A DNA stretch of 64,000 nt from Nocardioides acrostichi (GTDB taxonomy: Bacteria > Actinomycetota > Actinomycetes > Propionibacteriales > Nocardioidaceae). Below, piece after piece: positions 17,333 through 34,185 of this stretch. The first letter of the stretch is position 1; each line of letters starts with the position of its first letter. The notes below the pieces were generated by a model that was not told the DNA's origin, did no database searches, and saw only the letters and a list, made by a program, of their open reading frames with translations. The position numbers were made by a program, and so were the translations under genes. Location: the NCBI RefSeq assembly GCF_015319165.1, contig NZ_JADIVZ010000005.1:62001-126000 (forward strand). The letters run 5' to 3'.

Positions 17333-18109
17333 TCAGGGTCCGATCTCGCCTCCGGCCGGGGACCGATCCTTCAAGGCGACGCCGGAGGCTCCGAGTTCGC
17401 GAGCACCGCGCACCAGCCCGAGCAGCACGTCGGCGGCCCGGTCGTAGCCCAGACCGTCGGGCGGGTGGATGTTCGAGACGCAGTTGCGCTCGGAGTCACG
17501 TCGTCCGGCTCGCGGCTCGTGGGTGAGGTAGGCGCCGAGGGAGTCGGCGACCGAGAGACCGGGGCGCTCCCCCACCAGCACGATCAGGGTGCGCACGCCG
17601 AGCCGTTCGCCGATGTGGTCGCCGATGCCGACCCGCGCCTGCTCGGCCAGCACGACGGGCGCGACCCGGAGCTCGGCTCGACGGAAGCGGTCGAGCAGCG
17701 CGGCCACCATCGGCACCGCGTGGTCGTCGTGCGCCTTGGCGGAGAGTCCGTCGGCGAGCACGATGCCGACGTCCGGGCCGGCACCACCGGCCTCCGGCAC
17801 GGCCGAGAGGTCGGCGGGACGGCGGCCGAGGTCGGGACGACGCAGGTAGGTGGCGCGGTCGGGTGCCTGGCTCGCGACCCGCAGCACCTCGAGCCCGAGG
17901 TCGCGGAGACCGCGCTCGATCGCGTCGGCACCCCAGGGCAGGTGCACCGCGTCGCGCGCCACGGCGTGCGCTGAACGCAGTGCCAGCACCTGCGCGGTGG
18001 GCAGGGCGTCGCCGGCGCGCCCCAGGCCGATGCGGGAGCGGGTGGCGGTGCGCAGCGGCGTCCAGAAGTCGGGTGCCTCGCCCTCGGGTCGCATCGGTGC
18101 CGGGCTCAT
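17333..18109 (-). CDS. eutC: Ethanolamine ammonia-lyase small subunit
   Basis: Small subunit of the adenosylcobalamin-dependent lyase that converts ethanolamine to acetaldehyde and ammonia. The 258-residue length fits the family. Typical segments include RSRIGLGRAGDALPTAQVLA near the start, VGIVLADGLSAKAHDDHAVP in the middle and RDSERNCVSNIHPPDGLGYD near the end, including the conserved Cys close to the cobalamin. The ATG at 18109 overlaps the eutB stop by 4 bp (ATGA). No microcompartment or eutA reactivase genes are in the window. Confidence 0.93.
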   Translation of the reverse strand: MSPAPMRPEGEAPDFWTPLRTATRSRIGLGRAGDALPTAQVLALRSAHAVARDAVHLPWGADAIERGLRDLGLEVLRVASQAPDRATYLRRPDLGRRPADLSAVPEAGGAGPDVGIVLADGLSAKAHDDHAVPMVAALLDRFRRAELRVAPVVLAEQARVGIGDHIGERLGVRTLIVLVGERPGLSVADSLGAYLTHEPRAGRRDSERNCVSNIHPPDGLGYDRAADVLLGLVRGARELGASGVALKDRSPAGGEIGP

Positions 18110-19515
18110 CGGGCCGCCAGCTGCCGCAGGGCGCTGCTGCCGGCGTCGACCGAGGCGATGCGGCCGTCGCCGGCGAGCAGACCGACCCGCTCCAGCCACG
18201 CCTCGAACTCGGGTGCGGGGCGCAGCCCGAGCGTGTGCCGCACCGCGAGCACGTCGTGGAAGGAGAGGCTCTGGTAGCCCAGCATCACGTCGTCGGCGCC
18301 GGGCACCGTGATGACGAAGCCGACCCCACCGGCGGCGAGCAGAGTGAGCAGGGTGTCCATGTCGTCGGCGTCGGCCTCGGCGTGGTTGGTGTAGCAGACA
18401 TCGACTCCCATCGGCAGGCCGAGCAGGGTGCCGCAGGCGTGGTCCTCCAGCCCGGCGCGGATGATCTGCTTGCCGTCGTAGAGGTACTCGGGGCCGATGA
18501 AGCCGACCACGGTGTTGACCAGCAGCGGGTCGAAGGCGCGGGCCACCGCGTAGGCGCGGCACTCCAGGGTCTGCTGGTCGACGGGGCGACCGTCGACGCC
18601 GAGGTGGGCGTCGGCGGAGAGGCAGGAGCCCTGGCCGGTCTCGAAGTACATCGCGTTGGTGCCCACCGTGCCGCGGTCGAGCTCGCCAACGGCGGCGTGC
18701 GCCTCGGCGAGCACGGCCAGGTCGACGCCGAAGCCGCGGTTGGCGGCCTCGGTGCCGGCGATGGACTGGAAGACCAGGTCGACCGGGGCACCTGCCTCCA
18801 TCAGCTCGATGGTGGTGGTCACGTGGGCGAGGACGCACGACTGGGTCGGGATGTCGTAGCGCGTGCGCACCTCGTCGAGCAGGTGCAGCAGGTCGCCGGC
18901 AGCGCGGGCGGAGTCGGTGGCGGGGTTGATGCCGATCACCGCGTCGCCGCAGCCGAGCAGCAGTCCGTCGAGGGTGGCGGCCGCGACGCCGCGGGGGTCG
19001 TCCGTGGGGTGGTTGGGCTGGAGCCGGGTGGCCAGCCGCCCCGGCTCGCCGATGGTGCTGCGGAACGCGCTGCGCACGGTGCGCGCCCTGGCCACCGAGA
19101 TGAGGTCGGCGTTGCGCATCACCTTGCTCACCGCAGCGACCATCTCGGGCGTCAGACCGGGTGAGAGCGCCGCGAGCGCGGCGGAGGAGCCGGAGGTCGC
19201 GGCGGTCTCGAGCAGGTGGTCGCGCAGCCCTCCGACGGTGAGGTGGGCGACCGGAGCGAAGGCGGCCGCGTCGTGGGAGTCGACGATGAGCCGCGTGACC
19301 TCGTCGCTCTCGTAGGCCACCACCGGGTTCTCGAGCAGGTCGACGAGCGGCACGTCGGCCAGCACCCACTGCGCGGCGGCGCGTTCGGCGTCGGTCTCGG
19401 CGGCGCAGCCGGCCAGCTCGTCGCCACTGCGCCGCGGGCTGGCCTTGGCGAGGACGTCGACGAGGTGGTCGAAGGCGTAGGTGCGTCCGGCGATCTGCTG
19501 GCGGTAGCGGCTCAT
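18106..19515 (-). CDS. eutB: Ethanolamine ammonia-lyase large subunit
   Basis: Catalytic large subunit (469 residues, TIM barrel). Characteristic stretches are LQPNHPTDDPRGVAAATLDG, CGDAVIGINPATDSARAAGD, SIAGTEAANRGFGVDLAVLA and NTVVGFIGPEYLYDGKQIIR, which contribute to ethanolamine and cobalamin sites. The ATG at 19515 gives the family N-terminus MSRYRQQIAGRTYAFDHLVD; a longer reading overlaps the regulator gene. It sits 4 bp after the XRE-cupin gene and is coupled to eutC. Confidence 0.95.
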   Translation of the reverse strand: MSRYRQQIAGRTYAFDHLVDVLAKASPRRSGDELAGCAAETDAERAAAQWVLADVPLVDLLENPVVAYESDEVTRLIVDSHDAAAFAPVAHLTVGGLRDHLLETAATSGSSAALAALSPGLTPEMVAAVSKVMRNADLISVARARTVRSAFRSTIGEPGRLATRLQPNHPTDDPRGVAAATLDGLLLGCGDAVIGINPATDSARAAGDLLHLLDEVRTRYDIPTQSCVLAHVTTTIELMEAGAPVDLVFQSIAGTEAANRGFGVDLAVLAEAHAAVGELDRGTVGTNAMYFETGQGSCLSADAHLGVDGRPVDQQTLECRAYAVARAFDPLLVNTVVGFIGPEYLYDGKQIIRAGLEDHACGTLLGLPMGVDVCYTNHAEADADDMDTLLTLLAAGGVGFVITVPGADDVMLGYQSLSFHDVLAVRHTLGLRPAPEFEAWLERVGLLAGDGRIASVDAGSSALRQLAAR

Positions 19516-19519
19516 GGGC

Positions 19520-20200
19520 TCAGAGGCTCGCCTCGGGGAAGGCGATGATCGAGAGAAAGCGGATCGGCAGGTCGAGCAGTGCGGTGGGCCCGTGCAGGCC
19601 CTCGCCGTCGAGCTGGAGGGAGTCGCCGGGGCTGAGCGTGTAGACCGTGCGCCCGTGGCTGTACTCCATCGTCCCCTCGAGCATGTAGAGGAACTCGGTA
19701 CCGGGGTGCTGGAACAGCGGGTAGGTCTCGGACTTCTCCGACAGCGTGACCATGAGGCACTCCAGCCGCTTGTGCTCACCGCGCAGCGATCCGAGCAGCT
19801 CGTACTCGTGGCCCTCCTTGGTGCCCGCACGAGCGATGCGGGCACCGGTGCCGGCGGCGACGTAGGACGCCGGCCGCTCCGACTCCGCCCCGCGCAGCAG
19901 GGTCGTCACGGGCACGTCGAGCCCCACCGCGAGCCGCGAGAGCGTCGAGAGGCTGCACGAGGTCTGGGCGTTCTCGATCTTCGAGAGCATCGCCTTGGAG
20001 ATGCCCACGCGCTCGGCCATGTCGCCCACGCTCACCGCCTGCTGGTGGCGCAGCAGCCGCACGTTGCGGGCGATGGCCTCTTCGAGCTCGAGCTCCTCGA
20101 CCGGTGCGGCCGGGTCACGCTCACGGGCGGTGCCGGCGCGGTTGCGGAGGAGGGCCGGGTCGGCACCCTCACGCACGGTGCGGTTCTCACCAGTGGCCAT
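19520..20200 (-). CDS. XRE-family regulator with C-terminal cupin
   Basis: A 226-residue transcription factor. Residues about 40-95 form an XRE helix-turn-helix (NVRLLRHQQAVSVGDMAERV then GISKAMLSKIENAQTSCSLS). Residues about 145-220 form a small cupin (LFQHPGTEFLYMLEGTMEYS, LSPGDSLQLDGEGLHGPTAL), a ligand-sensing arrangement common in amine and amino acid catabolic loci. It lies between the FAD oxidase and eutB, so it probably controls this locus. Inverted TAGTTCACT arms before the glutamine synthetase gene and an AGTGAA half-site at its own start are candidate operators (inference). Confidence 0.88.
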   Translation of the reverse strand: MATGENRTVREGADPALLRNRAGTARERDPAAPVEELELEEAIARNVRLLRHQQAVSVGDMAERVGISKAMLSKIENAQTSCSLSTLSRLAVGLDVPVTTLLRGAESERPASYVAAGTGARIARAGTKEGHEYELLGSLRGEHKRLECLMVTLSEKSETYPLFQHPGTEFLYMLEGTMEYSHGRTVYTLSPGDSLQLDGEGLHGPTALLDLPIRFLSIIAFPEASL

Positions 20201-20206
20201 GAGTGA

Positions 20207-20212
20207 ATCGTA
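20207..20212 (-). promoter_or_regulatory. Possible leaderless -10 (TACGAT) of the XRE-cupin gene
   Basis: On the minus strand TACGAT lies 6 nt before the ATG at 20200. The intervening TTCACT resembles the half-site of the inverted repeat at 25880-25920, suggesting possible autoregulation and an internal promoter for the regulator and eutBC. Confidence 0.3.
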
Positions 20213-20244
20213 GGAGACACCCGGGGAGCCGGTCGTCGTGGCCG

Positions 20245-21456
20245 TCACCGCATCTCGCCCGCCCCGACGTAGGGGTGCGGGCTGCGCAGCAGGTCGCCCT
20301 CGGCGAAGCGCGCCAAGCGCAGGTCGTGCTCGGGCACGCGGGGATCCGAGCTGGTGCCGTCGACCACGAGATCGGCCACCAGCCTCCCCACCGCCGGCGA
20401 GATCTTGAACCCGTGCCCGCTGAATCCCGCGGCCACGACGAGACCCGGCATCGCGGGCACCGTCGAGATCACCGGGTTGTAGTCGGGCGTGACGTCGTAG
20501 CAACCGGCGTAGCTGCTGGCCAGCACCGCGTCGTCCAGCCCGGGGAAGCGATGCCCGATCTTGGCGGCCGCCATGTCGACGAAGGCGTCGTCGGCACGGT
20601 CGAGGTAGTGGTCGGGGTCGGCCGGCTTGAGGGTGGCGAGGTCGGAGTTGCCGAAGAGGATCTCCCCACCCACGTCGGGTCGTACGTACTGGAGCGAGAC
20701 CAGGTCGGAGAACACGGGGAGACCCTCGGTGGGCACGCCCGGCTTGAGCAGGATGATCTCCTCGCGGTGCACCCGGATCGGCAGGTCGACGCCGAGCGGA
20801 GCCGCCAGCGCCACCGACCACGGCCCGGCGGCGAGCACCACCTGCCGGCTCGCGACCCGCGAGCCGTCGCCCAGCCGGACGCCGCACACACCTTCGGCGT
20901 CCGTCTCGATCGCCGCGACACCCGCGCCCTGCGCGACCCGCGCACCGCCGCGCCGCGCCGCCGCGGCGAAGGCCTGTGCGGTGAGGTAGGCGTCGCCGTA
21001 CCCGCCGCGAGGCTCGTGGGCGAAGGCCGCGAAGTCGTCGAGCCGCGCGGTCGGCCACAGCTCGGCGACGGTGGCGTGGTCGATGGTCTCGGTCTGCACG
21101 CCCGCGGCGCGCTGGGCAGCGAGGTTGGCGTGCAGCGCCTCGACGTTCTCCGGCCCCACGCCCACGACGTAGCCGCACGACCGGAACCCGATGTCGAGTC
21201 CGTCCGAGAAGAGGTCGCTCGCGTGCTCGAACACCTCGGTGCCGTACACCGCCATGGCCGCCAGGGTCGGCACGCCGTAGTGACAGCGCACGATGCCCGA
21301 GGACTTGCCGGTCATGCCCGAGCCGACGGTGCTGCGCTCCAGCACCAGCACATCGGTCACCCCCCGGGTGGTGAGCTGCCACGCGGCCGCGCAGCCTTCG
21401 AGCCCACCCCCCACGACCACCACCTCGGCGGCGGAGGGCAGGGCGCGCGCACTCAT
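20245..21456 (-). CDS. FAD-dependent amine/amino acid oxidoreductase (DAO family)
   Basis: A 403-residue flavoprotein beginning with a dinucleotide fold, VVVVGGGLEGCAAAWQLTTR. The layout matches sarcosine oxidase beta/D-amino acid oxidase relatives: a SSGIVRCHYG segment near residue 55, VLAAGPWSVALAAPLGVDLP, and the C-terminal GFSGHGFKISPAVGRLVADL flavin motif. The family oxidises secondary or N-methylated amines. Following glxBCD in one operon, N-methylglutamate or a related N-alkyl glutamate is a reasonable substrate guess; this is inference. The ATG at 21456 is 4 bp after the glxD stop. Confidence 0.82.
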   Translation of the reverse strand: MSARALPSAAEVVVVGGGLEGCAAAWQLTTRGVTDVLVLERSTVGSGMTGKSSGIVRCHYGVPTLAAMAVYGTEVFEHASDLFSDGLDIGFRSCGYVVGVGPENVEALHANLAAQRAAGVQTETIDHATVAELWPTARLDDFAAFAHEPRGGYGDAYLTAQAFAAAARRGGARVAQGAGVAAIETDAEGVCGVRLGDGSRVASRQVVLAAGPWSVALAAPLGVDLPIRVHREEIILLKPGVPTEGLPVFSDLVSLQYVRPDVGGEILFGNSDLATLKPADPDHYLDRADDAFVDMAAAKIGHRFPGLDDAVLASSYAGCYDVTPDYNPVISTVPAMPGLVVAAGFSGHGFKISPAVGRLVADLVVDGTSSDPRVPEHDLRLARFAEGDLLRSPHPYVGAGEMR

Positions 21457-21460
21457 CGGG

Positions 21461-22852
21461 TCACCAGCCCTCGACCGCACCGACGCCGGGGATCCACGAG
21501 GTGCCGGCCAGCGGCACCCCGGCCATCGCGGCGGACTCGACGGTGAGCGCCACCAGATCCTCGGGCTCGAGATGGGTGACGTGCGCCTTGCCGCAGGCCC
21601 GGGCGATGGTCTGGGCCTCCATGGTGAGCACCCGCAGGTAGTTCGCCAGCCGGCGACCACCCTCGACGGGGTCGAGCCGGGCCGCGAGGGCGTCGTCCTG
21701 GGTGCAGATGCCGGCGGGGTCACGACCGTCCTGGTAGTCGTCGTAGCAGCCGGCCGCGGAGCCGATGGCCTCGTAGTCGGACTCCCACCGCGGGTCGTTG
21801 TCGCCGAGGGCGATGAGCGCCGCGGTGCCGATCGAGACCGCGTCGGCTCCCAGCGCCAGCGCCTTGGCGACGTCGGCCCCGGTGCGCACGCCGCCGGAGA
21901 CGATCAGCTGCACGCCGTCCGGCTGGCGGTGCACGCCCAACTCGCGCAACGCCCGCACCGCCTGCGGGATGGCCGCCAGCGTCGGGATGCCGACGTTCTC
22001 GATGAACACGTCCTGCGTGGCCGCGGTGCCGCCCTGCATGCCGTCGACGACCACCACGTCGGCGCCGGCGTGCACCGCCAGCTTCACGTCGTAGTAGGTG
22101 CGCGAGGCGCCGACCTTGACGTAGATCGGCTTCTCGCCGTCGGTGATCTCGCGCAGCTCGGTGATCTTGATGGTGAGGTCGTCCGGGCCGGTCCAGTCGG
22201 GGTGGCGGCAGGCGCTGCGCTGGTCGATGCCCTGCGGCAGGGTGCGCATACTCGCGACCCGCTCGCTGATCTTCTGGCCCAGCAGCATGCCGCCGCCGCC
22301 CGGCTTGGCGCCCTGGCCGAGCACGATCTCGATGGCGTCGGCCTGGCGCAGGTGGTCGGGGTTCATGCCGTAGCGGCTGGGCAGGTACTGGTAGACGAGC
22401 TGCTTGGACTGGCCGCGCTCCTCGGGCGTCATGCCTCCGTCGCCGGTGGTCGTCGACGTCCCGACCTCCGACGCCGCCCGGCCGATGGCCTCCTTGGCTC
22501 GCCCCGAGAGCGCGCCGAAGCTCATGCCCGCGATGGTCACCGGGGTGTCGAGGCGCAACGGGTAGGCGCCGTGCCGGGCCCCGAGCACGACGTCGGTGCC
22601 GCAGGCCTCGCGGTAGCCCTCGAGCGGATAGCGGCTCATCGAGGCACCCAGGAACAGCAGGTCGTCGAAGTGCGGCAGCGCACGCTTCGCCCCGAACCCC
22701 CGGATGTCGTAGAGCCCGGTCTGCGCGGCCCGCTGGATGTCGTGGATCGTCGCCGCGTCGAAGGTCGACGACGGCCGCAGACCACGGCGCGCGCGCTCGG
22801 TGGCCGGGTCGCTCATCGGACCACTCATCGGACCGTTCATCGGATCTGACAC
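21461..22852 (-). CDS. glxD: FMN-binding glutamate-synthase-like protein (GlxD/MgsC-like)
   Basis: A 463-residue homologue of the FMN/Fe-S synthase domain of glutamate synthase. Visible are SFGALSGRAKEAIGRAASEV, GGMLLGQKISERVASMRTLP, VVVVDGMQGGTAATQDVF and IVSGGVRTGADVAKALALGA, followed by a Cys-containing segment (CYDDYQDGRDPAGICTQDD) that could bind Fe-S. With GlxB and GlxC it would make a three-piece enzyme like N-methylglutamate synthase MgsABC. The GTG at 22852 is preferred because AGGAGG lies 4 nt upstream and overlaps the glxC stop. Confidence 0.88.
   Translation of the reverse strand: MSDPMNGPMSGPMSDPATERARRGLRPSSTFDAATIHDIQRAAQTGLYDIRGFGAKRALPHFDDLLFLGASMSRYPLEGYREACGTDVVLGARHGAYPLRLDTPVTIAGMSFGALSGRAKEAIGRAASEVGTSTTTGDGGMTPEERGQSKQLVYQYLPSRYGMNPDHLRQADAIEIVLGQGAKPGGGGMLLGQKISERVASMRTLPQGIDQRSACRHPDWTGPDDLTIKITELREITDGEKPIYVKVGASRTYYDVKLAVHAGADVVVVDGMQGGTAATQDVFIENVGIPTLAAIPQAVRALRELGVHRQPDGVQLIVSGGVRTGADVAKALALGADAVSIGTAALIALGDNDPRWESDYEAIGSAAGCYDDYQDGRDPAGICTQDDALAARLDPVEGGRRLANYLRVLTMEAQTIARACGKAHVTHLEPEDLVALTVESAAMAGVPLAGTSWIPGVGAVEGW
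22811..22846 (-). repeat. Three 12-bp tandem repeats in the glxD 5' end
   Basis: Three copies of (G/A)(C/T)TCATCGGA(C/T)C in tandem encode the repetitive N-terminus MSDPMNGPMSGPMSDP of GlxD. Repeat number may vary between strains. Confidence 0.7.
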
Positions 22853-22856: not shown

Positions 22857-22862
22857 CCTCCT
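22857..22862 (-). promoter_or_regulatory. Shine-Dalgarno AGGAGG deciding the glxD start
   Basis: A perfect AGGAGG overlaps the TGA of glxC and sits 4 nt before the GTG at 22852. Its distance to the next in-frame ATG would be 16 nt, so GTG is the better start. Confidence 0.65.
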
Positions 22863-23578
22863 CAGTACGTGTTGTCGGCGTGGAAGTGGTAGAGCGTGCG
22901 AGCCGAGCCGTACCGCGTGTACTCGGCCGGGTCGTCGTCCTCGTAGCCGGCCGCCTTGAGCAGGCCGGCCAGTTCCTCGAGGTGCTCGTCTCGCATCGGC
23001 TTGGCGACGCAGTCGGCGCCCAGCGAGGCGACGCTGCCGCGCACGTAGAGCCGCGCCTCGTAGAGCGAGTCGCCCAGCGCCTCGCCCGCGTCGCCGCGTA
23101 CCACCAGCCGACCGGCCTGGGCCATGAACGCGCTCATGTGACCGATCGAGCCGCCCACCACGATGTCGACGCCCTTCATCGAGATGCCGCACCGCGCGGC
23201 GGCGTCCCCTTCGACGACGAGCAGCCCGCCGTGGGCGGTGGCGCCGGCCGACTGGGAGGCGTTCCCGCGCACGGTGACCGATCCGCTCATCATGTTCTCG
23301 GCGACACCCACGCCCGCGTTGCCCTCGATCACCACGTCGGCGCGCTGGTTCATGCCTGCGGCGTAGTAGCCGACGTGCCCGGCGACGCGCACCGAGCGGG
23401 GCGCGTCGAGCCCGACGGCGACCGCGTGGGCGCCGCGGGGGTTGACCAGCTCGACGGCCTCGTCGATCGCGAGTGGCGCGTGCCCGTCGACGGGTCTGCC
23501 GTGCAGCAGGGCGTTGACGCTGCGCAGCGGCACCGCGGCGAGGTCGAAGGTACGGAGTCCGATGGTCACCGGGTCCAT
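22862..23578 (-). CDS. glxC: GXGXG-motif glutamate-synthase-like subunit (GlxC/MgsB-like)
   Basis: A 238-residue right-handed beta-helix protein corresponding to the C-terminal structural domain of glutamate synthase. Repeated turns such as VRVAGHVGYYAAGMNQRADV, VVEGDAAARCGISMKGVDIV and VVGGSIGHMSAFMAQAGRLV show the G-x-G-x-G ladder. It presumably scaffolds the GlxB and GlxD pieces. The ATG at 23578 overlaps the glxB end by 13 bp. Confidence 0.88.
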   Translation of the reverse strand: MDPVTIGLRTFDLAAVPLRSVNALLHGRPVDGHAPLAIDEAVELVNPRGAHAVAVGLDAPRSVRVAGHVGYYAAGMNQRADVVIEGNAGVGVAENMMSGSVTVRGNASQSAGATAHGGLLVVEGDAAARCGISMKGVDIVVGGSIGHMSAFMAQAGRLVVRGDAGEALGDSLYEARLYVRGSVASLGADCVAKPMRDEHLEELAGLLKAAGYEDDDPAEYTRYGSARTLYHFHADNTY

Positions 23579-24507
23579 GCGTAGATCCTCTCCGGCTCGG
23601 GCTCGTAGAGCCGGGCCTCCTCGATGCCGGGCAGTCCGACCAGGGCGCGGTACTCCGAGGCCATCGCGACCCAGCGCGGGTGCTCGGCGATGACGGCGGG
23701 CTTGCAGGCGATGGCGTCGCGTACCACCGCGAAGGAGTCGGCGTTGCTGACCAGCAGCGTGTAGAAGCCGTCGAAGGTGGTGGTGAGCTCCTTGAGCGCG
23801 GTCTCGACGTCGTAGCCGGCGGCCAGCCGGTCGGCGACGAAGCGGGCGCCCACCTCGGTGTCGTTGGCGGAGTCGAAGGCGTGTCCCGTCGCGCGCAGGT
23901 CGCGACGGATGGTCGCGTGGTTGCTGAAGGAGCCGTTGTGCACCAGGCACTGGTCGGGGCCGACGGCGTAGGGGTGACAGCCGCCCGGCGTCACGGCCGA
24001 CTCGGTCGCCATGCGCGTGTGCCCCACGCCCTGCCACCCTTGCGCACCCGGCAGCCCGTAGGCCTGCGCCAGCTGCTGCGGGTGGCCGACGCCCTTGAGC
24101 ACGGCCACGTGCTCGCCGAACCCGGCGATCAGCGCCCCCGGCCAGCAGGTGCGGACGGCGTCTCGCAGCGCCTGGGTGCCCGTCGCGGCCGGCACGTGCG
24201 CCACCAGGGTCGGGCCCGCCGCGTTCACCGCGACCGGCTCCCCCAGCTCCGTGCCGAGGATCGTCGCCGCGTCCGGTGCTGCCACCACCGACGCGAGCCC
24301 ACCGGTGGCCGGATCCTGGTGGTCGGGGTGGGTGAGGAACGAGACCGCGACCCGGCCGGGCGGCGTCCACGTCGGGTCGCCGTAGACGGCGACGCCGGCG
24401 GAGTCGGCACCCCGCTCGGACATCTCGCAGAGCATGCCGGTGAGCAGCTCACCCAGCCGCGGGTACAGGCCGGGGTCACGCAGGTGCAGTCCGACGATTC
24501 CGCACAT
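23566..24507 (-). CDS. glxB: Class II glutamine amidotransferase (GlxB/MgsA-like)
   Basis: A 313-residue Ntn-type glutaminase. After Met removal the nucleophile Cys leads CGIVGLHLRDPG. GWQGVGHTRMATESAVTPGG and CHPYAVGPDQCLVHNGSFSN give the conserved Arg and the Asn-Gly pair of the oxyanion hole. It would hydrolyse glutamine, or a gamma-glutamylamide, and channel the amine to GlxC/GlxD. The ATG at 24507 is fixed by a strong GAGGAGGAA ribosome-binding site and by the need for Cys at position 2. Confidence 0.9.
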   Translation of the reverse strand: MCGIVGLHLRDPGLYPRLGELLTGMLCEMSERGADSAGVAVYGDPTWTPPGRVAVSFLTHPDHQDPATGGLASVVAAPDAATILGTELGEPVAVNAAGPTLVAHVPAATGTQALRDAVRTCWPGALIAGFGEHVAVLKGVGHPQQLAQAYGLPGAQGWQGVGHTRMATESAVTPGGCHPYAVGPDQCLVHNGSFSNHATIRRDLRATGHAFDSANDTEVGARFVADRLAAGYDVETALKELTTTFDGFYTLLVSNADSFAVVRDAIACKPAVIAEHPRWVAMASEYRALVGLPGIEEARLYEPEPERIYAWTR

Positions 24508-25879: not shown

Positions 25880-25920
25880 TAGTTCACTGATAGTAGTCGT
25901 TGTCTACGACGAGTGAACTA
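25880..25920 (-). promoter_or_regulatory. Promoter inside a perfect 9-bp inverted repeat upstream of glnT
   Basis: TAGTTCACT at 25880-25888 is the exact inverse of AGTGAACTA at 25912-25920, with a smaller GTCGT/ACGAC repeat inside. Read on the minus strand, TTCACT could serve as -35 and TACTAT, 16 nt later, as -10, so the arms would cover the promoter. The segment is AT-rich against the surroundings. The XRE-cupin protein encoded downstream is the obvious candidate binder (inference). Confidence 0.6.
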
Positions 25921-27141: not shown

Positions 27142-28496
27142 ACGGTGACCTCCTGGTCAGTCGGGTCGAAGGAGTCGTCGGAGGCGAGGACGGCGTCCTG
27201 CTCCTTGAGGGTCGTGATCGGGATGCCCTCGGGGTACGGCGTGGCCGGCACCTCGCTGAGGTCCAGACCGGCGAGCTCCACCTCGGCCGGGATGCGCAGC
27301 ATGTTCATCTTCTTCAGACCCAGCGAGAGCAGGTAGCCCGGCACGAAGCCGAGGACGGCGATGACGATCGCGCCACCGATCTGCCCCAGCGGGTTGACTT
27401 CCGGCGGGGTGCCGAACCCGTCGATCGGCACGTTGGGGTAGCCCCACAGCACGAAGCCGGAGACGACCAGGCCGTAGAAGGCGCACCCGCCGTGCACGGC
27501 GACGGCGCCCACGACGTCGTCGATCTCGAACTTCTCCAGCATCCGGCCGAAGTGCGGGATGAGCATGCCGCCGACCGCGGCGATGATGAACGCGAGCGCC
27601 GGGTGGTAGAGGTCCATGCCCGGAGCCACGGAGATGACGCCGGCCAGACCGCCGGAGATGGTCCAGAACGGCTCGCCCTTGGAGCTGACGTAGGCGCCGA
27701 TGATGCCGCCCGCCAGGCCCATGAGCGTGCTGAACGCGATGGCCGAGAGGGTCGTCGGGTTGCCGAAGATCGAGAGGTAGCCCGTGTTCGTGTAGACCAC
27801 ACAGCCCATGAGGAAGCCGAAGAACCCGATGAAGATCAGCATCAGGCCGAGCATCGTCAGCGGCAGGTTGTGCGGGCGGATGGTGATCGCCTGACCCCCG
27901 ACGAACCGACCGATGCGGGGGCCGAGGTTCATCAGCACACCGAGCGTGAAGGCGCCGGCGACCAGGTGCACGCACGCGGCGGCGCCGAAGTCGTGCCAGC
28001 CCCACTCGGTGAGCAGCCAGCCGTTGGGGTGCCAGGCCCAGGCGGCGGCGATGATCCACACCACCGACCCCAAGACGGTGGTGAGGACGAGGAAGGCGCT
28101 GGTGCGGATGCGCTCGAGCACGGCGCCCGAGAGGATCGAGCCGGTCGTGGCTGCGAAGAGCGCGAAGGCGCCCCAGAAGATGCCGGTCACCGACGTGAGG
28201 TTCGGGCCCATGTCGTCGCTCCACGGCAAGGCGGCCGTGGCGGCGTCGATGGCGCCGACGGGGAACTGGAAGAACGCGTTGTAGAACCACCAGCCGAAGA
28301 AGAAGAAGGTGGCGGTCACCACGGCGAAGGTGAGCAGGTTCTTCATGGCGGCGGCGAGCACGTTCTTCGACCGGCTGGCGCCCATCTCGTAGGCGAGGAA
28401 GCCGGCGTGGATGCTGATCATCAGCGCGATCGACACCCAGTAGAAGAGGTCGGTGATGACCCCTTCCATGGAGGCGAGGGTTTCATCGGGGGACAC
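27138..28496 (-). CDS. amt: Ammonium/methylammonium transporter
   Basis: A roughly 452-residue Amt channel with about 11 helices. The twin pore histidines are visible in AACVHLVAGAFTLGVLMN and VGAVAVHGGCAFYGLVVSGF, and the aromatic gate region in FFFFGWWFYNAFFQFPVG. The GTG at 28496 is preferred to the in-frame ATG at 28511, because AAGGAG lies 6 nt before the GTG and would be inside the longer protein. A motif shared with the demethylase operon lies just upstream, arguing that uptake of ammonium or methylammonium is tied to amine breakdown. Confidence 0.9.
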   Translation of the reverse strand: MSPDETLASMEGVITDLFYWVSIALMISIHAGFLAYEMGASRSKNVLAAAMKNLLTFAVVTATFFFFGWWFYNAFFQFPVGAIDAATAALPWSDDMGPNLTSVTGIFWGAFALFAATTGSILSGAVLERIRTSAFLVLTTVLGSVVWIIAAAWAWHPNGWLLTEWGWHDFGAAACVHLVAGAFTLGVLMNLGPRIGRFVGGQAITIRPHNLPLTMLGLMLIFIGFFGFLMGCVVYTNTGYLSIFGNPTTLSAIAFSTLMGLAGGIIGAYVSSKGEPFWTISGGLAGVISVAPGMDLYHPALAFIIAAVGGMLIPHFGRMLEKFEIDDVVGAVAVHGGCAFYGLVVSGFVLWGYPNVPIDGFGTPPEVNPLGQIGGAIVIAVLGFVPGYLLSLGLKKMNMLRIPAEVELAGLDLSEVPATPYPEGIPITTLKEQDAVLASDDSFDPTDQEVTV

Positions 28497-28512
28497 GGGC
28501 GTCTCCTTCATG

Positions 28513-28560
28513 GGTCATGGAAGTAAACACAGTCTGCTGCGGTGAAACGCTTCGTGGGTT
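28513..28560 (-). promoter_or_regulatory. Upstream motif of amt shared with the N-demethylase operon
   Basis: On the minus strand this segment reads AACCC...GTTTCA...AGCAGAC...GTTT.CT..C.TGA.C. The same ordered blocks occur at 34137-34185 before the cupin-demethylase operon. AGCAGAC and GTTTCA are identical with a 4-nt spacer in both, and 18 of 26 positions match across the start-proximal block. A common activator or repressor site, or a shared promoter, is likely. Confidence 0.6.
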
Positions 28561-28625: not shown

Positions 28626-29675
28626 TCAGTGGGCGAGCAGCCAGTCGGCCGTGCGGTGGCGGTACTTGGCGATGCCCTTGTACTCGGCCATGTCGTCGGG
28701 CAGCTCGCGGAGTACCTCGGCGGTGCGCAGCCGCCAGTGCTCGACGCCCGCGAGGTCGGCCAGAGGCAGCAGGTAGGTGCGGATGAGGAACATGACCGCG
28801 CCGGACTCCGGCAGCCGGATCAGGTGCTGCACCTCGACCCGCAGGTGCACGAGCCGGCCGAAGTCCTCGTCGTCCAACGTCTGCACCCACTCCCGGTCCG
28901 GCCCCCATTCGGGATAGAGCTCGGTCGAGACGTCGAGGCGGCGGCCGACGGTCAGCGTCCAGTTGGTACGCCGGTAGACCTCGCCGGGCTCGAGCCGCTT
29001 GAGGAACTCGTGCGCGCGCGTGATCACACCCTCGGCGTGCAGCCGTGGCACCGGGCCGTGGATCTCCAGGAACGTCATGCCGACGTCGAACCCGAACGAC
29101 CAGTCGGCCGCGAAGGTCACCACGCCGGCATCGCCGTACAGCACGCCGTCGCGCTGGTCGAGCAGCACGATGTCCTCCTGCACCTGTGCGGCGATCCAGC
29201 CCAGCGGCTCGGGATGCTCGGGCGGCAACGTGTCGGTGTCGCCCAGGACGAAGGTGTGGTCGATGCCGAGCAGGTCGTTGCGCCAGCGATACGTCGGCCG
29301 CGCACCCCGCTCGAGCAGCGTCAGATCGCACTGGTCGGGGTGGGTGAGGGCGAGCTCGCGCATCAGGTCGAGGGCGGCGTCCCAGGCGGCCACGTGCATG
29401 TGCGGCAGCACCGCGTACCGGCTCGGGTCGACGGCCAGGATGCGGGCGCGCTCGGCGAGCTCGTGGTGGTACTCCGAGTCGATGTCGACCACCGCTTCGC
29501 CCCACTGGCCCGCCGGCGTCGACACCGCGGCTCGGCCCGGTTCGACGTTGGTGCTGTAGCGGTAGGTGGTCTGCGGGAACGGGAACGGGAAGGTCGCGAT
29601 CAGGTCGGGGGACGTGCGCGCGTGACCCCTCGAGCGATCGTGGGTGACCCCTCGCGCTTCATGGACGGTGCTCAC
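28626..29675 (-). CDS. Heme-dependent oxidative N-demethylase alpha-like subunit, copy 2 (DUF3445)
   Basis: A 349-residue protein of the HODM alpha-subunit family, the PAS-fold heme component of dimethylamine monooxygenase that removes an N-methyl group using O2. Family landmarks are YRYSTNVEPGRAAVSTPAGQ near the start, DLTLLERGARPTYRWRNDLL, FEIHGPVPRL-type EIHGPVPRLHAEGVITRAHE and EVQHLIRLPESGAVMFLIRT. It is the last gene of the operon; its GTG overlaps the reductase stop (GTGA). Its first 25 residues are encoded by two copies of a CGAGGGGTCAC repeat and may not be conserved. It is paralogous to 31176-32189. Confidence 0.82.
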   Translation of the reverse strand: MSTVHEARGVTHDRSRGHARTSPDLIATFPFPFPQTTYRYSTNVEPGRAAVSTPAGQWGEAVVDIDSEYHHELAERARILAVDPSRYAVLPHMHVAAWDAALDLMRELALTHPDQCDLTLLERGARPTYRWRNDLLGIDHTFVLGDTDTLPPEHPEPLGWIAAQVQEDIVLLDQRDGVLYGDAGVVTFAADWSFGFDVGMTFLEIHGPVPRLHAEGVITRAHEFLKRLEPGEVYRRTNWTLTVGRRLDVSTELYPEWGPDREWVQTLDDEDFGRLVHLRVEVQHLIRLPESGAVMFLIRTYLLPLADLAGVEHWRLRTAEVLRELPDDMAEYKGIAKYRHRTADWLLAH

Positions 29676-30652
29676 AGCAGAACCTCCAGGTGGGAGCGGC
29701 CGTCGGCGCCGGGCTGGGCCCGCGAGACACAGGCCATGACACAGTCGCCGGCCGCCTTGTCGTCATCGGTCAGGTACAGGTCGCGGTGCAGCAGCCCGGT
29801 GGCGGAGCCGACCTTGAGCCGGCACTCACCGCACACGCCTTGGCGACACAGGCTCGGGATCTCGCGACCCGCCTCCTCGAGTGCCTCGAGCAGGCTCACC
29901 CCGCTCGGCACGTCGAGCACGTCGCCGTCGACGCCGACCGTGAACGGCTCGCCGGGGGCGAGGGCATCGATGCCGAAGTGCTCCAGGTGCACACGGCCGG
30001 CGGGCCAGCCCGCCACGGTCGCCTCGGCCACGACGGTGTCCATGAAGCCGGCCGGCCCACAGGTGTAGAGGTGGGTGCCCATCGGTTGGGCACGCAGCCG
30101 ACCGCGCAGGATCGTGAGCCAGGTGGCTCGGTCGTGCACGAGCGTGACGGCATCGCCGCCGAGTTCGACCAGGTCGTCGAGGTGTGCGCCCTGGCCGGGC
30201 CGCGCGAGGTGCAGCACCTCGACCGGTGCACCCCACCGCGCATGCGAGCGCAGGTGCGAGACCAGGGGGGTCACGCCGATGCCGGCCCCCAGCAGCAGGT
30301 GCCGGCTCGCCGGTCGCACCGGCGCGAAGGCACTGCGAGGCGGCAGCACCTGCACCTGCGAGCCCACGCCGAGCGTGTGCATCCAGGCCGAACCGCCATG
30401 ACCGCCGTCGCTGTGGGGTACGTGCAGCACGGAGATCGAGTACCGGTCGGGGTGCAGGCTCTCACCGGTGAGCGAGTAGGCGTTGGCCAGCGGACGCTCA
30501 CGACCCTCTCCCGCGGGGATCTCGACCACGACGTGGGATCCGGGGGTGTAGGACGGCAGGGTCGCACCGCTCGGATCGGCCAGGCTCAGCGAGCGGACGC
30601 CGGGAGCGGCATCCACGGCGTCGAGCACCACGAGGGACAGCGAGGCGCTCAT
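29672..30652 (-). CDS. FMN/[2Fe-2S] oxygenase reductase, copy 2
   Basis: A 326-residue phthalate-dioxygenase-reductase-type protein that passes electrons from NAD(P)H to the heme subunit. It has a flavin-binding barrel with NAYSLTGE, a nucleotide domain opening LLLGAGIGVTPLVSHLRSHA with YTCGPAGFMDTVVAEA, and a C-terminal plant-type ferredoxin with CRQGVCGECRLKVG plus a distal Cys (CVMACVSRAQ). The ATG at 30652 overlaps the upstream small-subunit stop. It corresponds to the reductase subunit of the dimethylamine monooxygenase system. Confidence 0.87.
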   Translation of the reverse strand: MSASLSLVVLDAVDAAPGVRSLSLADPSGATLPSYTPGSHVVVEIPAGEGRERPLANAYSLTGESLHPDRYSISVLHVPHSDGGHGGSAWMHTLGVGSQVQVLPPRSAFAPVRPASRHLLLGAGIGVTPLVSHLRSHARWGAPVEVLHLARPGQGAHLDDLVELGGDAVTLVHDRATWLTILRGRLRAQPMGTHLYTCGPAGFMDTVVAEATVAGWPAGRVHLEHFGIDALAPGEPFTVGVDGDVLDVPSGVSLLEALEEAGREIPSLCRQGVCGECRLKVGSATGLLHRDLYLTDDDKAAGDCVMACVSRAQPGADGRSHLEVLL

Positions 30653-31179
30653 GCCGGCCCCTCGGCGTCGACCATGAAGCCCAGGTGGGCACCCGTGCGG
30701 CGCGAGACGTGCGGGTAGACCAGCAACGTCCGTCCACAGCCCGCGCAGGCCAGCACGTCCTCCAGTTCGGCTGCGGCGCTGTTCGTGGCGTGGCAGTGCA
30801 CGCACCACACCGATCGTTCGTCGACCGTGGTGACGGCCACCCGCAGTTCGGCGTCCGACAGCCCGGCGCGCACGGCTGCCGCCCGCACGGCGAGACATGC
30901 CTGCGCGGAGCCGGCGACCAGCACCCGGTGACCCACGAGCGCGTCGGCGAGGTCGGTCTCGAGTGCGTCCACCGCCTGCGCGGCGTCGGCGCAGTCGTGG
31001 TGCCGCACCCTCGCTCCGGCACAGCCGAGAGCGTCGAGCCAGTGCGCGGCCGCGGCGGCGCCGTCCGGACCGACCGAGAGGACGCTGTGGCTGGTGCCGG
31101 CATGGTCGACCGGCTCCACCACGGGTTCGCGCGCCCAGGCAGGAACGCTGGTGTAGTGCGGCGGGGCGGGCGCGCTCAC
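30649..31179 (-). CDS. DmmA-like small subunit with Cys motifs, copy 2
   Basis: A 176-residue protein opening with a hydrophilic leader and a flavodoxin-like alpha/beta region (GHRVLVAGSAQACLAVRAAA). It ends with two Cys pairs, VWCVHCHAT and CAGCGRTLLVYPHVSRRTGA, a probable zinc or rubredoxin-like knuckle. The domain layout matches the DmmA-like component seen next to HODM reductase genes. It may dock or regulate electron transfer; the exact role is unknown. Both ends overlap neighbours by 4 bp. Confidence 0.72.
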   Translation of the reverse strand: MSAPAPPHYTSVPAWAREPVVEPVDHAGTSHSVLSVGPDGAAAAAHWLDALGCAGARVRHHDCADAAQAVDALETDLADALVGHRVLVAGSAQACLAVRAAAVRAGLSDAELRVAVTTVDERSVWCVHCHATNSAAAELEDVLACAGCGRTLLVYPHVSRRTGAHLGFMVDAEGPA

Positions 31180-32189
31180 ACCGGCTCCCCCGTCGCGTCG
31201 GTCAGCCAGGCCATGGCTTCCTCCCGGTAGTCGGCGAACCCCTTGTAGGTCGCGAGGTCGTCTGGCAGCTCGAGCACGATCCGGGCCAGCTGGTCGCGCC
31301 AGGCAGGGATCTGCTTGATCTCCTCGAGCGAGGTCATGTGGGTACGGATGTTGAAGGTGAGGGCGCCGGTCATGGGCAGGCGGATGAAGTGCTCGACCTC
31401 GATGCGCAGCTGGAGCCGCCCCCAGTCGGCCTCGCGCACCAGCAGCGGGATGTCGGTGCCCCACTGCGGTAGTTCCTCCAGCGACACGTCGAGCTTGCGC
31501 GAGCCGGACGCCGAGAGCGTCCAGTTGACGCGTCGGTAGACCTGGTCGGCGGGCAGCCGCCGCAGGAACTGCTCCGCACGGGACGTGATGCCCTCCCGGG
31601 TCAGGCGGGGCACGGGATTGTGGATCTCGCGCATGGTCATGCCGACGTCGAAGGACACCGACCAGGCGGCGGCGAAGGTGACCAGGCCGGCGTCGAAGCA
31701 GAGGTCGCCGTCGCGGTCTTTGACCAGCAGCAGGTCGTCGGGGATCTCGCGGCCCAGGAACGTCATCGGGTCGGACGGCAGGGACGAGGCGTCGCCGAGC
31801 ACGAAGCGCTGGTCGGTGCCCAGGGCGTGGTTGCGCCAGTGGAAGGCGTCGCCTTGTTCGTCGAGCTCCATCACGTGGGGGTAGCTCAGGGCGAGGTCGC
31901 GCAGGTAGTAGAGCAGCAGATCCCAGCAGGCCGGGATCATGCCCGGCATGATCCGGGTGCGGTGCGGGTCGGCGTCGAGGATGCGACGCCGGTCGGCCAT
32001 GATCGCGCCGTACTCCTCACCGCCGAGGTCGACGATGTGGGCGCCCCACTCCCCCGCCGCCGTGCGGCGTGGCACCCTCGCGGGCTCGACGTTGACCGAG
32101 TAGCGGAAGGCGTCGAGGTCGTCGGGGAACGGCCAGGGCAGGCGCGTGGTGTGGCCGCTCAGGGGCGGCCCGGTCTGGAGCTGGGTCAT
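31176..32189 (-). CDS. Heme-dependent oxidative N-demethylase alpha-like subunit, copy 1 (DUF3445)
   Basis: A 337-residue HODM-type heme subunit: FRYSVNVEPARVPRRTAAGE, FHWRNHALGTDQRFVLGD, EIHNPVPRLTREGITSRAEQ and EVEHFIRLPMTGALTFNIRT line up block for block with copy 2 at 28626-29675. Overall divergence between the two copies is clearly large, so this is an old duplication with probably different substrates rather than a recent repeat. The ATG at 32189 overlaps the reductase stop; the gene runs into the second small subunit with a GTGA overlap. Confidence 0.84.
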   Translation of the reverse strand: MTQLQTGPPLSGHTTRLPWPFPDDLDAFRYSVNVEPARVPRRTAAGEWGAHIVDLGGEEYGAIMADRRRILDADPHRTRIMPGMIPACWDLLLYYLRDLALSYPHVMELDEQGDAFHWRNHALGTDQRFVLGDASSLPSDPMTFLGREIPDDLLLVKDRDGDLCFDAGLVTFAAAWSVSFDVGMTMREIHNPVPRLTREGITSRAEQFLRRLPADQVYRRVNWTLSASGSRKLDVSLEELPQWGTDIPLLVREADWGRLQLRIEVEHFIRLPMTGALTFNIRTHMTSLEEIKQIPAWRDQLARIVLELPDDLATYKGFADYREEAMAWLTDATGEPV

Positions 32190-33187
32190 GGGAGGTCCAC
32201 CTCGATCACGGCGCCGGGGTGAGCGCCTCGGGAGACGCAGGAGGCCAGTCGGTCACCGGCCGCCCGCTCGTCGTCGCTGAGCACGAGGTCGCGGTGCTCG
32301 ACCTCGCCGCCGCGCAGCGGCACGACGCACTCGCCGCACACCCCCTGGCGGCACAGGTTGGGTACGTCGACTCCGGCGTCGAGCAGAGCAGCCAGCAGGC
32401 TGGTGCCGGCCGGGACGTCGAGAGCGCGGTCGTCGGCGAGCCGCACGGTGAACGGCGAGCCGGGGTCGAGCTCGGGAGCCGCGAAGCGCTCGAGGTGCAG
32501 CCGCTCCTCGGGCCAGCCCGCGGCACGGCCGGCCTCGAGGTAGGCGTCGAGCATGGCTGGCGGACCGCACGCGTAGGCATGGGATCCGAGCGGCTGGTCG
32601 GCGAAGCGGTCGGCCAGCAGCCTCGTGGTGCCCTCGACCGTGGTCGCCTCGTGCAGGGTGATGCCGGGCGTGGTCGCCAGCTCACGCAGGTCGTCGAGGT
32701 GCGCGGCGTGGCCGGGACGGTAGGAGTACAGCACCTCGGCCGTGCCACCCCAGCGCACGATGGCGCGCAGGTGGCTGAGCACCGGGGTGACGCCGATGCC
32801 GCCGGCGACGAGCAGCGCGTGCCGCTGGTCGTGCCGCGGCGCGAAGGCCGAGCGTGGACCGCTCACCTCCACCAGGTCGCCCGGGCCCAGGGCGTGCATC
32901 CACGACGAGCCGCCCGTGCCGCCCTGCTCGGGACGCTTGTGGAGCACCGAGATCGCGTAGCTGCCGGGGAGCACCCCGTCGCCGGTGAGCGAGTAGGCGT
33001 TGTGCTTGACCTCGCCGTCGTGCCCGCGGGTGGTGAGGACGAGGTGCGAACCGGGCTCGTGCCCGGCCAGCGGCAGACCGTCGTCGGCGACCAGCCGCAG
33101 GTGCCGCACGGAGTCGGTGAGGTCGCGCACGTCGGCGACCCGCACGATCCGGGTGCCGGTCCGGTAGCCGGGGTGCCGGTGCGTCAT
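32186..33187 (-). CDS. FMN/[2Fe-2S] oxygenase reductase, copy 1
   Basis: A 333-residue reductase with the same order as copy 2: barrel with HNAYSLTGDG, nucleotide fold LLVAGGIGVTPVLSHLRAIV and YACGPPAMLDAYLEAGRAAG, then ferredoxin with CRQGVCGECVVPLRGG and a distal Cys (LASCVSRGAH). Start ATG at 33187, overlapping the small-subunit stop. Feeds electrons to the partner heme subunit, presumably copy 1. Confidence 0.88.
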   Translation of the reverse strand: MTHRHPGYRTGTRIVRVADVRDLTDSVRHLRLVADDGLPLAGHEPGSHLVLTTRGHDGEVKHNAYSLTGDGVLPGSYAISVLHKRPEQGGTGGSSWMHALGPGDLVEVSGPRSAFAPRHDQRHALLVAGGIGVTPVLSHLRAIVRWGGTAEVLYSYRPGHAAHLDDLRELATTPGITLHEATTVEGTTRLLADRFADQPLGSHAYACGPPAMLDAYLEAGRAAGWPEERLHLERFAAPELDPGSPFTVRLADDRALDVPAGTSLLAALLDAGVDVPNLCRQGVCGECVVPLRGGEVEHRDLVLSDDERAAGDRLASCVSRGAHPGAVIEVDLP

Positions 33188-33705
33188 GCGACGTCTCGCG
33201 CCCGGGCGTCGGAGGCCAAGAAGCTGCCCCGCACAGCGGAGTGGTGCGGGTGCACCTCGAGTCGCCGCCCGCAGCCGGGGCAGTCGACCTCCTCGCCGGG
33301 AGCCGTGTGCAGCCGGTGCGTCGCCCGGCAGTGCGCGCAGTAGACGGGCAGGTCGACCAGCGGTTCGTCCACGTCGACGACGAAGCTGCGCAACTCGGTC
33401 GGCCCCAGGCCGTGGGCCCGCGCGGTGGCGAGGACGGTGAGGACGTCGTAGGTGCCGCCCACGACGAGCACCCGCACGCCCGTGCGGGAGGCTGCCAGCG
33501 CCGGGCCCACGTCGTCCGGGTGGGAGACGACACGGCTCGGCGCGAGCGCCTCGGCCTCGGCGACCCACGCCCCGGCCACCGAGGCCGTGCGCGGATGGTC
33601 CCCCAGGGCGATCACGAGGTGGCTGGTGCCGCTGGGGTCGACGGACTCGGGCTGGGCCGGCCAGACCGGCAGCCCGAGTACCGACCCTCCGATGGGCTCG
33701 GACAC
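33184..33705 (-). CDS. DmmA-like small subunit with Cys motifs, copy 1
   Basis: A 173-residue paralogue of 30649-31179, with VRVLVVGGTYDVLTVLATAR in the alpha/beta half and VYCAHCRATHRLHTAPG plus DCPGCGRRLEVHPHHSAVRG at the C-terminus, again two CxxC pairs. GTG start at 33705, 13 bp after the cupin stop. First subunit gene of the first demethylase module. Confidence 0.72.
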   Translation of the reverse strand: MSEPIGGSVLGLPVWPAQPESVDPSGTSHLVIALGDHPRTASVAGAWVAEAEALAPSRVVSHPDDVGPALAASRTGVRVLVVGGTYDVLTVLATARAHGLGPTELRSFVVDVDEPLVDLPVYCAHCRATHRLHTAPGEEVDCPGCGRRLEVHPHHSAVRGSFLASDARARDVA

Positions 33706-33718
33706 GACTCGGCCCCGA

Positions 33719-34111
33719 TCAGAGCAGGGTGGCGTCGCGGTCGCCGGCGTAGAACGCCAACGCGTACGACGGCGTCGAGAACGCGATGCGCGAGCCCTTC
33801 GGGAAGAAGATGGCGTCCTTGGCCTTGGCCACCATCGCCTGACCGGTGTCGATGTTCGTGAGCAGGAACTCGCCCTCGAGCACGACCTTCATCTCGTCGT
33901 ACTCGTAGTCGTAGACCAGGGGCTCGTCGGTGTGCTTGAGCTCGAAGAACCCGCTGCACATGCGCGAGCCCTCGGGGTTCTCGTAGACATCGGCGATGTA
34001 GCCGTCGGAGGCCGGGTACTCCTCCATGCGCGGCAACCTCTTCCAGGCCTCGGGTGTGACCCGGAACGCGGCGGGGGCGGTGGTGGTGGCGGGTGCGGCG
34101 TCGGCAGACAT
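33719..34111 (-). CDS. EutQ-like cupin, first gene of the N-demethylase operon
   Basis: A 130-residue single-domain cupin. After a flexible leader it has YDYEYDEMKVVLEGEFLLTN and AKAKDAIFFPKGSRIAFSTP, with acidic residues where many cupins have His ligands, as in EutQ-like ethanolamine-utilisation cupins. The role may be substrate sensing or a small enzymatic step. The shared regulatory motif lies 25 nt upstream of its ATG, so this gene marks the operon start. Confidence 0.75.
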   Translation of the reverse strand: MSADAAPATTTAPAAFRVTPEAWKRLPRMEEYPASDGYIADVYENPEGSRMCSGFFELKHTDEPLVYDYEYDEMKVVLEGEFLLTNIDTGQAMVAKAKDAIFFPKGSRIAFSTPSYALAFYAGDRDATLL

Positions 34112-34136
34112 CAGGGGCGCTCCAGTCCAGAAGGTC

Positions 34137-34185
34137 GATCACGAGAGGAAACTTCGTCTGCTCTCATGAAACATCTTCTCGGGTT
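34137..34185 (-). promoter_or_regulatory. Upstream motif of the N-demethylase operon shared with amt
   Basis: Counterpart of 28513-28560. In plus-strand view GTCTGCT at 34156-34162 and TGAAAC at 34167-34172 are separated by 4 nt, as before amt, with GGGTT following at 34181-34185. Two GAAAC pentamers 15 bp apart suggest a dimeric binding site. Confidence 0.6.

Follow-up and report, generated by a model that had tools for sequence, protein, structure and literature searches.

A probable dimethylamine and methylamine nitrogen-assimilation locus of Nocardioides acrostichi that carries ethanolamine ammonia-lyase genes

Why do the genes of an ethanolamine ammonia-lyase, EutBC, stand beside genes for oxidative N-demethylation and gamma-glutamyl transfer in Nocardioides acrostichi? 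The locus that raises this question runs on the minus strand from position 34111 to position 17333 of a 64,000-nucleotide stretch (contig NZ_JADIVZ010000005.1 of assembly GCF_015319165.1, positions 62,001 to 126,000), the whole of which is called the window below. A preliminary description had left two readings of it: the conversion of dimethylamine through methylamine, gamma-glutamylmethylamide and N-methylglutamate to glutamate, or the stepwise demethylation of dimethylethanolamine to ethanolamine, followed by EutBC. The model we favour, with a probability of about 0.7, is that of an actinobacterial locus for the assimilation of dimethylamine and methylamine nitrogen, with EutBC as an added, second supply of amine nitrogen. 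Most of the genes are accounted for by the first of the two readings, and the chemistry is mostly known while its arrangement is new.

In the model we favour, the demethylase DmmABC would convert dimethylamine into methylamine and formaldehyde, and a glutamine synthetase (GS) resembling the gamma-glutamylmethylamide synthetase GmaS would join the methylamine to glutamate. GlxBCD, a relative of MgsABC, would turn the product of the GS into N-methylglutamate, from which a single flavin adenine dinucleotide (FAD) oxidase, used instead of MgdABCD, would release glutamate and a second one-carbon unit. The Amt channel would serve the uptake of methylammonium or ammonium. A shared operator would place the dmm operon, amt and the GS operon under the XRE-cupin protein; EutBC, encoded last in the GS operon, would answer to this signal as well and provide ammonia from ethanolamine. 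The parts, identified by Pfam and NCBIfam profile scans and from open reading frame translations, are the following.

34156..34172, minus strand: operator-like site upstream of the cupin-dmm operon (GTYTMM-N5-GYAGAC, 0 mismatches)
33719..34111, minus strand: EutQ-like cupin of 130 residues, first gene of the dmm operon (PF06249, 58 bits)
33184..33705, minus strand: dmmA1, DmmA-family subunit of module 1 (NF041259, 92.6 bits, cut-off 60)
32186..33187, minus strand: dmmB1, ferredoxin-reductase subunit (PF22290 and PF00111; 37% identity to Rhizobium DmmB)
31176..32189, minus strand: dmmC1 (hodm1), paralogue of the haem-dependent oxidative N-demethylase (HODM) (PF11927, 194 bits; PDB 5lte, 256 bits; separate clade, 100/100)
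30649..31179, minus strand: dmmA2, DmmA-family subunit of module 2 (NF041259, 111 bits, cut-off 60)
29672..30652, minus strand: dmmB2, ferredoxin-reductase subunit (PF22290 and PF00111; 38% identity to Rhizobium DmmB)
28626..29675, minus strand: dmmC2 (hodm2), HODM copy closer to the solved enzyme (PF11927, 208 bits; PDB 5lte, 302 bits; 46% identity to Rhizobium DmmC)
28532..28548, minus strand: operator-like site upstream of amt (GTYTMM-N5-GYAGAC, 0 mismatches)
27138..28511, minus strand: Amt-family channel of a divergent subtype (PF00909, 211 bits; TIGR00836, 218 bits, cut-off 343)
26009..26803, minus strand: protein of the formate/nitrite-transporter family, FNT (PF01226, 130 bits; under the TIGR00790 cut-off)
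25902..25918, minus strand: operator-like site upstream of GS-glxBCD-oxidase-XRE-eutBC (GTYTMM-N5-GYAGAC, 1 mismatch)
24534..25859, minus strand: type III GS, gamma-glutamylmethylamide synthetase-like (TIGR03105, 577 bits, cut-off 470; PDB 7cql (GmaS) and 9qur; pocket residues)
23566..24507, minus strand: GlxB, MgsA-like glutamine amidotransferase (PF13522, GATase, 54 bits; 43% identity to Rhizobium GlxB)
22862..23578, minus strand: GlxC, MgsB-like GXGXG subunit (PF01493, 31.1 bits, just under the cut-off of 32.5; 61% identity to Rhizobium GlxC)
21461..22852, minus strand: GlxD, MgsC-like flavin mononucleotide (FMN) glutamate synthase subunit (PF01645, 295 bits; 80% identity in Methylophaga aminisulfidivorans, 75% in Rhizobium)
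20245..21456, minus strand: SoxB-like FAD amine oxidase of one subunit, proposed to oxidise N-methylglutamate (PF01266, DAO, 210 bits; sarcosine-oxidase-type PDB matches; 27% identity to Rhizobium SoxB)
19520..20248, minus strand: XRE-cupin regulator (PF01381 and PF07883; 44% identity to XRE in the Rhizobium glx cluster)
18106..19515, minus strand: eutB, ethanolamine ammonia-lyase large subunit (PF06751, 678 bits; NF011649, 675 bits; active-site motifs intact)
17333..18109, minus strand: eutC, ethanolamine ammonia-lyase small subunit (PF05985, 278 bits; NF003971, 291 bits)

Every part named in the preliminary description, namely the demethylases, Amt, type III GS, GlxBCD, FAD oxidase, XRE-cupin and EutBC, was recovered in its place by profile matches; that inventory had overlooked the FNT gene, and it is refined in that all three genes of a set are present in each demethylase module and that the Amt is divergent. 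Downstream of the cupin, neighbouring dmm genes share 4 bases at each junction, and GS, glxBCD, the oxidase, XRE and eutBC look like one operon, since no intergenic gap from GS through eutC exceeds 26 bases. Wider gaps separate dmm from amt (114 bases), amt from FNT (334) and FNT from GS (149). The FNT gene found no tblastn match in any of the 80 named GlxD loci described below, and a conserved link to formate through it was rejected on this count.

The closest PDB matches of the GS are two methylamine ligases (7cql, 374 bits; 9qur, 332 bits), the next GS following at 178 bits. The GmaS residues D177, E179, E186, N188, Y147, K30, R312 and W300, whose roles in amine binding and catalysis are treated in the available text of PMC7948447, are all kept; closeness together with Asp177, Glu186, Arg312 and Trp300 places the protein with GmaS, and the full pocket including Gln175 is not preserved. 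The GATase, GXGXG and FMN glutamate-synthase subunits lie in tandem beside the GS in the layout of MgsABC. The nearest named relatives of GlxD come from Pimelobacter (90% identity) and also from Nocardioides, Kineosporia, Paractinoplanes and others, and Methylophaga aminisulfidivorans, the owner of the 80%-identical GlxD, is a methylotroph.

No genes of a four-subunit MgdABCD type lie in the locus, which has one DAO gene instead, and nothing in the whole genome exceeds the cut-off for a SoxA-type alpha subunit (TIGR01372); the GcvT-like end of soxA has a match elsewhere in the genome. Because mgd-type and soxA matches are absent here and the cluster still includes a sarcosine-oxidase alpha subunit in both proteobacterial loci examined (L093 of Marinobacterium rhizophilum, where the protein has 982 residues, and pSK02 of Rhizobium leguminosarum), a one-subunit N-methylglutamate oxidase likely replaces MgdABCD. 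In locus L008, an M20-family peptidase gene (12422-13729) lies between the FAD oxidase and XRE, and a similar gap in several loci may hold the same gene.

The company kept by these genes elsewhere agrees with the dimethylamine reading. Our named GlxD loci were the 80 best of at least 584 (72 actinobacterial and 8 proteobacterial by their record titles), with flanks of up to 10 kb that are in some cases clipped by contig ends, so that the counts of dmm and eut genes are lower bounds. Among the 72 actinobacterial loci, GS is found in 69, GlxB in 70, GlxC in 65 and XRE in 63; dmm genes lie within 10 kb of GS-GlxBCD in at least 15, which, together with pSK02 and a route already published, bears out the first of the two readings. 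Genes of eut lie near GlxD in at least 2 of the 72 and at least 1 of the 8 proteobacterial loci. Since XRE adjoins GlxD in 63 of the 72 loci and eut in only 2 of them, the XRE-cupin protein was rejected as a dedicated eut regulator.

At the level of genomes, the order sample (245 genomes, that of the window included) holds HODM in 6, EutB in 41 and a close GlxD (>=80%) in 12; dmm and Glx occur without adjoining eut in G014 and G212, and Glx and eut without HODM in G157. In the class sample (394 genomes) HODM is found in 40, EutB in 50 and a GlxD-like gene in 44, the last in 23/40 genomes with HODM against 21/354 without. The pairs HODM and GlxD (23 genomes, p 7e-15), EutB and GlxD (24, p 3e-13) and HODM and EutB (17, p 4e-7) exceed expectation by Fisher tests that, like all p values given here, ignore kinship. 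Among GlxD-positive genomes, EutB is found in 17/23 with HODM and in 7/21 without (p 0.014); among GlxD-negative genomes, it is found in 0/17 with HODM. In 22 named genomes chosen mostly for dmm, EutB is found in 20, including all 15 with dmm near GlxD.

The two arguments that had been advanced for a dimethylethanolamine substrate, the doubled demethylase and the EutQ-like cupin, both failed, neither being specific to ethanolamine. The window holds two complete DmmABC sets, each with a DmmA, a ferredoxin-reductase DmmB and a haem-containing, HODM-type DmmC; a doubled demethylase is also found in G014 and G212, where EutB lies on another contig, and in Gordonia, where 15 of the 16 genomes with HODM have it and one has a single copy; by gene position, 0/16 of these carry EutB on the HODM contig at a distance of 30 kb or less. 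The cupin adjoins dmm, the retrieved flanks being free of eut genes, in 7 loci (L054, L072, L079, L080, L081, L087 and L089) of Rhodococcus, Prescottella, Rhodococcoides, Nocardia and Williamsia, and again without eut on a Mycobacterium plasmid; it reaches only 47 bits against a cut-off of 193 for the true EutQ acetate kinase profile. As it accompanies dmm genes elsewhere without eut genes, it was rejected as a marker of ethanolamine use. Between eutC and amt of G157, an orphan DmmA-like protein (PF22289; L010, 2967-3461) is encoded; this genome yielded no HODM subunit.

In the DmmC tree hodm1 belongs to a clade of its own (11 rows, support 100/100, stem 1.03), a hodm2-type copy is also present in all 11 of its loci, and where a locus contributes one copy only, this is hodm2-like. 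With 17 positions at which the hodm1 and hodm2 groups show nearly invariant differences, hodm1 is, judged by its sequence, an old, long-separated paralogue.

Both subunits of EutBC score above their family cut-offs, and the EutB motifs R-L-Q-P-N, N-P-A, E-T-G-Q and C-Y-T-N-H, which we take to be catalytic, are kept in 36/36 rows (35 different); an altered active site was rejected, since the motifs are intact and no position is private to the window's 4-row subclade when compared with the 31 other rows. What is peculiar is the position of the genes. They adjoin the cluster on its 3' side, after XRE, in the window and in Nocardioides sp. GY 10127, lie 5' of the cupin in Nocardioides sp. GY 10113 and 5' of amt-GS in G157, whose genome has no HODM, and stand beside the cluster on the opposite strand in Marinobacterium rhizophilum. 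The preliminary description had named as fatal to itself a state in which demethylase and glnT or eut genes never co-occur elsewhere, and dmm, GS-Glx and eutBC are found together in both GY 10127 and GY 10113. In the EutB tree the window groups with GY 10127, G600 and G035 (100/99), and GY 10113 and G157 fall on other branches, so a repeated origin of the linkage is most likely. Rough chance estimates, in which lineages are not independent, give 0.32 linked of 80 loci if each genome has one EutB (3 were seen) and 0.04 among the 6 order-sample genomes with both genes (2 were seen).

An ethanolamine permease above cut-off is also missing: the best TIGR00908 match in this genome reaches 83 bits against a cut-off of 382, which 6 of 7 scanned permeases near eutBC exceed, the seventh reaching 327 bits. 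A permease relative lies within 6 kb of eutBC in 16/30 unlinked loci (one at 40% identity, the rest at >=77%; 9 of the 30, being fragments of 4.3 kb, may be too short to include it) and in 0/5 linked loci, in two of which EutB is within 1.3 kb of a contig end. In Gordonia (29 genomes, treated as one genus as drawn), EutB is found in 16/16 genomes with HODM and in 4/13 without (p = 7e-5); 6 of the 9 genomes without either gene are smaller than 4 Mb, so that the association may in part reflect lineage and genome size. By its place at the end of the GS operon, the operator-like motif, the repeated linkage, the lack of a permease and the Gordonia co-occurrence, EutBC looks wired into the cluster.

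Elsewhere eutBC also stands in other surroundings. EutBC of G212 (L019, 11806-18701) adjoins an oligopeptide-type ABC transporter, a LysR regulator and a carbon-nitrogen hydrolase, and around EutBC of G014 (L018, 304-7210) the binding protein is confirmed and the remainder looks like the G212 layout. In Marinobacterium (L093, 12926-16540) eutB, eutC and amt apparently form an operon, and its Amt shares about 57% identity with the unusual one of the window, other low-identity Amt genes of the survey being 24-30% identical to it. A TauE/SafE-type membrane protein, possibly a substrate transporter, is encoded directly upstream of eutB in GY 10113 (L113, 8135-8920).

The repeated linkage of eutBC, the missing permease and the hodm1 paralogue keep alive an alternative that we consider unlikely, a dedicated aerobic route for N-methylated ethanolamines. 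The two demethylase sets would convert N,N-dimethylethanolamine into methylethanolamine and then ethanolamine inside the cell, EutBC would split this into acetaldehyde and ammonia, GS-Glx would assimilate the nitrogen, and the whole would form an XRE-cupin regulon in which the link to eutBC arose repeatedly. This would fit the linkage at three separate places in the EutB tree (window and GY 10127; GY 10113; G157), the EutB of every HODM-bearing Gordonia and an old paralogue with no assigned substrate, and a permease would be unneeded because ethanolamine is formed inside the cell. Against it stand the cupin and the doubled dmm where no eut gene adjoins, the ordinary active site of EutB, a GS-Glx-oxidase chain left without an evident role, and the class sample, in which HODM and EutB lie within 30 kb in 1 of the 17 genomes with both, that of the window, and over-cut-off EutB is missing from 23/40 HODM genomes, including 4/9 of the family containing Gordonia. 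The separate hodm1 clade, always accompanied by a hodm2-type copy, and the near-invariant differences between the two groups would suit a cascade in which module 1 converts trimethylamine into dimethylamine and module 2 this into methylamine, the GS-Glx-oxidase chain completing the route and EutBC being incidental. Known dimethylamine monooxygenase (DMM) works on secondary amines, which speaks against this cascade; we hold it to be quite improbable.

The GS and the oxidase leave room for larger primary amines, ethanolamine included: the GS would form gamma-glutamyl-ethanolamide or a larger amide, GlxBCD an N-alkylglutamate, and the FAD oxidase would cleave it. The replacement of the GmaS-pocket residue Gln175 by Ala throughout the aligned actinobacterial GS points this way, as does the oxidase, which varies among the loci (at >=45% identity in 49/72 actinobacterial loci, only lower in 12/72, and not always directly after GlxD). 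The same replacement is found in loci without eut genes, the remaining checked pocket residues are GmaS-like and EutBC would become redundant, and we regard this possibility as very unlikely.

The regulatory part of the favoured model is based on a 17-base motif, GTYTMM-N5-GYAGAC, which precedes cupin, amt and GS; of its 4 matches in the window three lie in these promoters and the fourth inside eutB. With up to 1 mismatch it is found upstream of GS in 23/79 other loci (60 permuted motifs gave a mean of 0.67 and a maximum of 4), of the cupin in 2/14 and of amt in 2/5, and in 0/34 other eutB promoters; before GS it takes the form of a perfect palindrome in several loci. From the place of the regulator in the operon, we infer that the XRE-cupin protein binds this motif.

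Several observations weigh against the dimethylamine-methylamine model. Ala stands at the position of Gln175 in all 78 aligned actinobacterial homologues, the window included (the distant GS of L003 was set aside), and Gln is kept in 8/8 proteobacterial GS, so that the GS may act on an amine other than methylamine. The locus lacks DmmD, and no GCV_T match was found among its proteins; in the marine genomes covered by the available text of PMC5520151, DmmD is reported always to adjoin dmmABC. HODM and GlxD-like genes lie within 30 kb in just 4 of the 23 class-sample genomes with both. The motif was chosen after these promoters had been viewed, which makes the permutation control not fully independent, and shuffling predicts 2.4 matches in the window against the 4 seen, 24/100 shuffles reaching 4. 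When up to 1 mismatch is allowed, neither the cupin nor the amt of GY 10127 is preceded by it and the GY 10113 cluster lacks it; the five Rhizobium stretches tried gave no match either. Finally, a purely additive role of EutBC leaves the repeated linkage and the missing permease unexplained.

If the model is true, actinobacteria of Nocardioides, Gordonia, Rhodococcus, Mycolicibacterium and similar genera run the N-methylglutamate route on an oxidase encoded by one gene and not on MgdABCD, and surveys keyed on mgd genes would miss the final step of the pathway. The locus also points to a candidate second N-demethylase, to a putative operator common to its promoters, and to a recurrent association of methylamine use with ethanolamine use. 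A literature search in a limited collection found no work joining dimethylamine monooxygenase with ethanolamine ammonia-lyase; dimethylethanolamine and ethanolamine ammonia-lyase never appeared together there, and likewise eutB, gmaS and methylamine. In the same collection a paper on paracetamol mentions ethanolamine ammonia-lyase, methylamine and Nocardioides once each, and a review names both dimethylamine monooxygenase and Gordonia. On either side of the locus lie a CsoR-like repressor gene (downstream) and genes of an ABC permease and ATPase (upstream), which we left out of the unit, and a plus-strand frame beside it (14744-16858) encodes an AtzH-like stretch followed by an amidase stretch.

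How, in conclusion, does the locus compare with known systems? Nocardioides sp. GY 10127 (L057/L120) has the gene order of the window from cupin to eutBC, and differs in that no FNT gene was found and that about 96 bases precede eutB by the gene calls made here. Stand-alone actinobacterial EutBC have an EutB 70-80% identical to that of the window with the same active-site motifs, and a permease relative within 6 kb in about half of the loci counted above, whereas EutBC of the window lies in the GS-Glx operon without one. The dmmDABC-gmaS-mgsABC-mgdABCD genes of Ruegeria pomeroyi and Methylocella, as far as the available text of PMC5520151 describes them, are alike in DMM, a GmaS-like GS, an MgsABC-like GlxBCD, Amt and the proposed order of reactions, the route published for Ruegeria leading from dimethylamine to methylamine, gamma-glutamylmethylamide and N-methylglutamate; compared with them, the window has one FAD oxidase and no DmmD or MgdABCD-type genes, two DMM sets, an EutQ-like cupin, and EutBC in the GS operon. 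In Rhizobium leguminosarum, the pSK02 cluster runs sox-GlxA-XRE-GlxBCD-glnT-purU-dmmDABC, with products identical to those of the window at 43% for GlxB, 61% for GlxC, 75% for GlxD, 42% for glnT and 44% for XRE, and a DmmC 46% identical to hodm2 and 38% to hodm1. It differs by its sarcosine-oxidase-type genes, purU and dmmD, and no eut gene, Amt or second DMM is listed for its 25 kb, in a gene table that is incomplete. Because pSK02 matches the published dimethylamine and methylamine route in another phylum, it provides the strongest argument for reading the locus of N. acrostichi in the same way.

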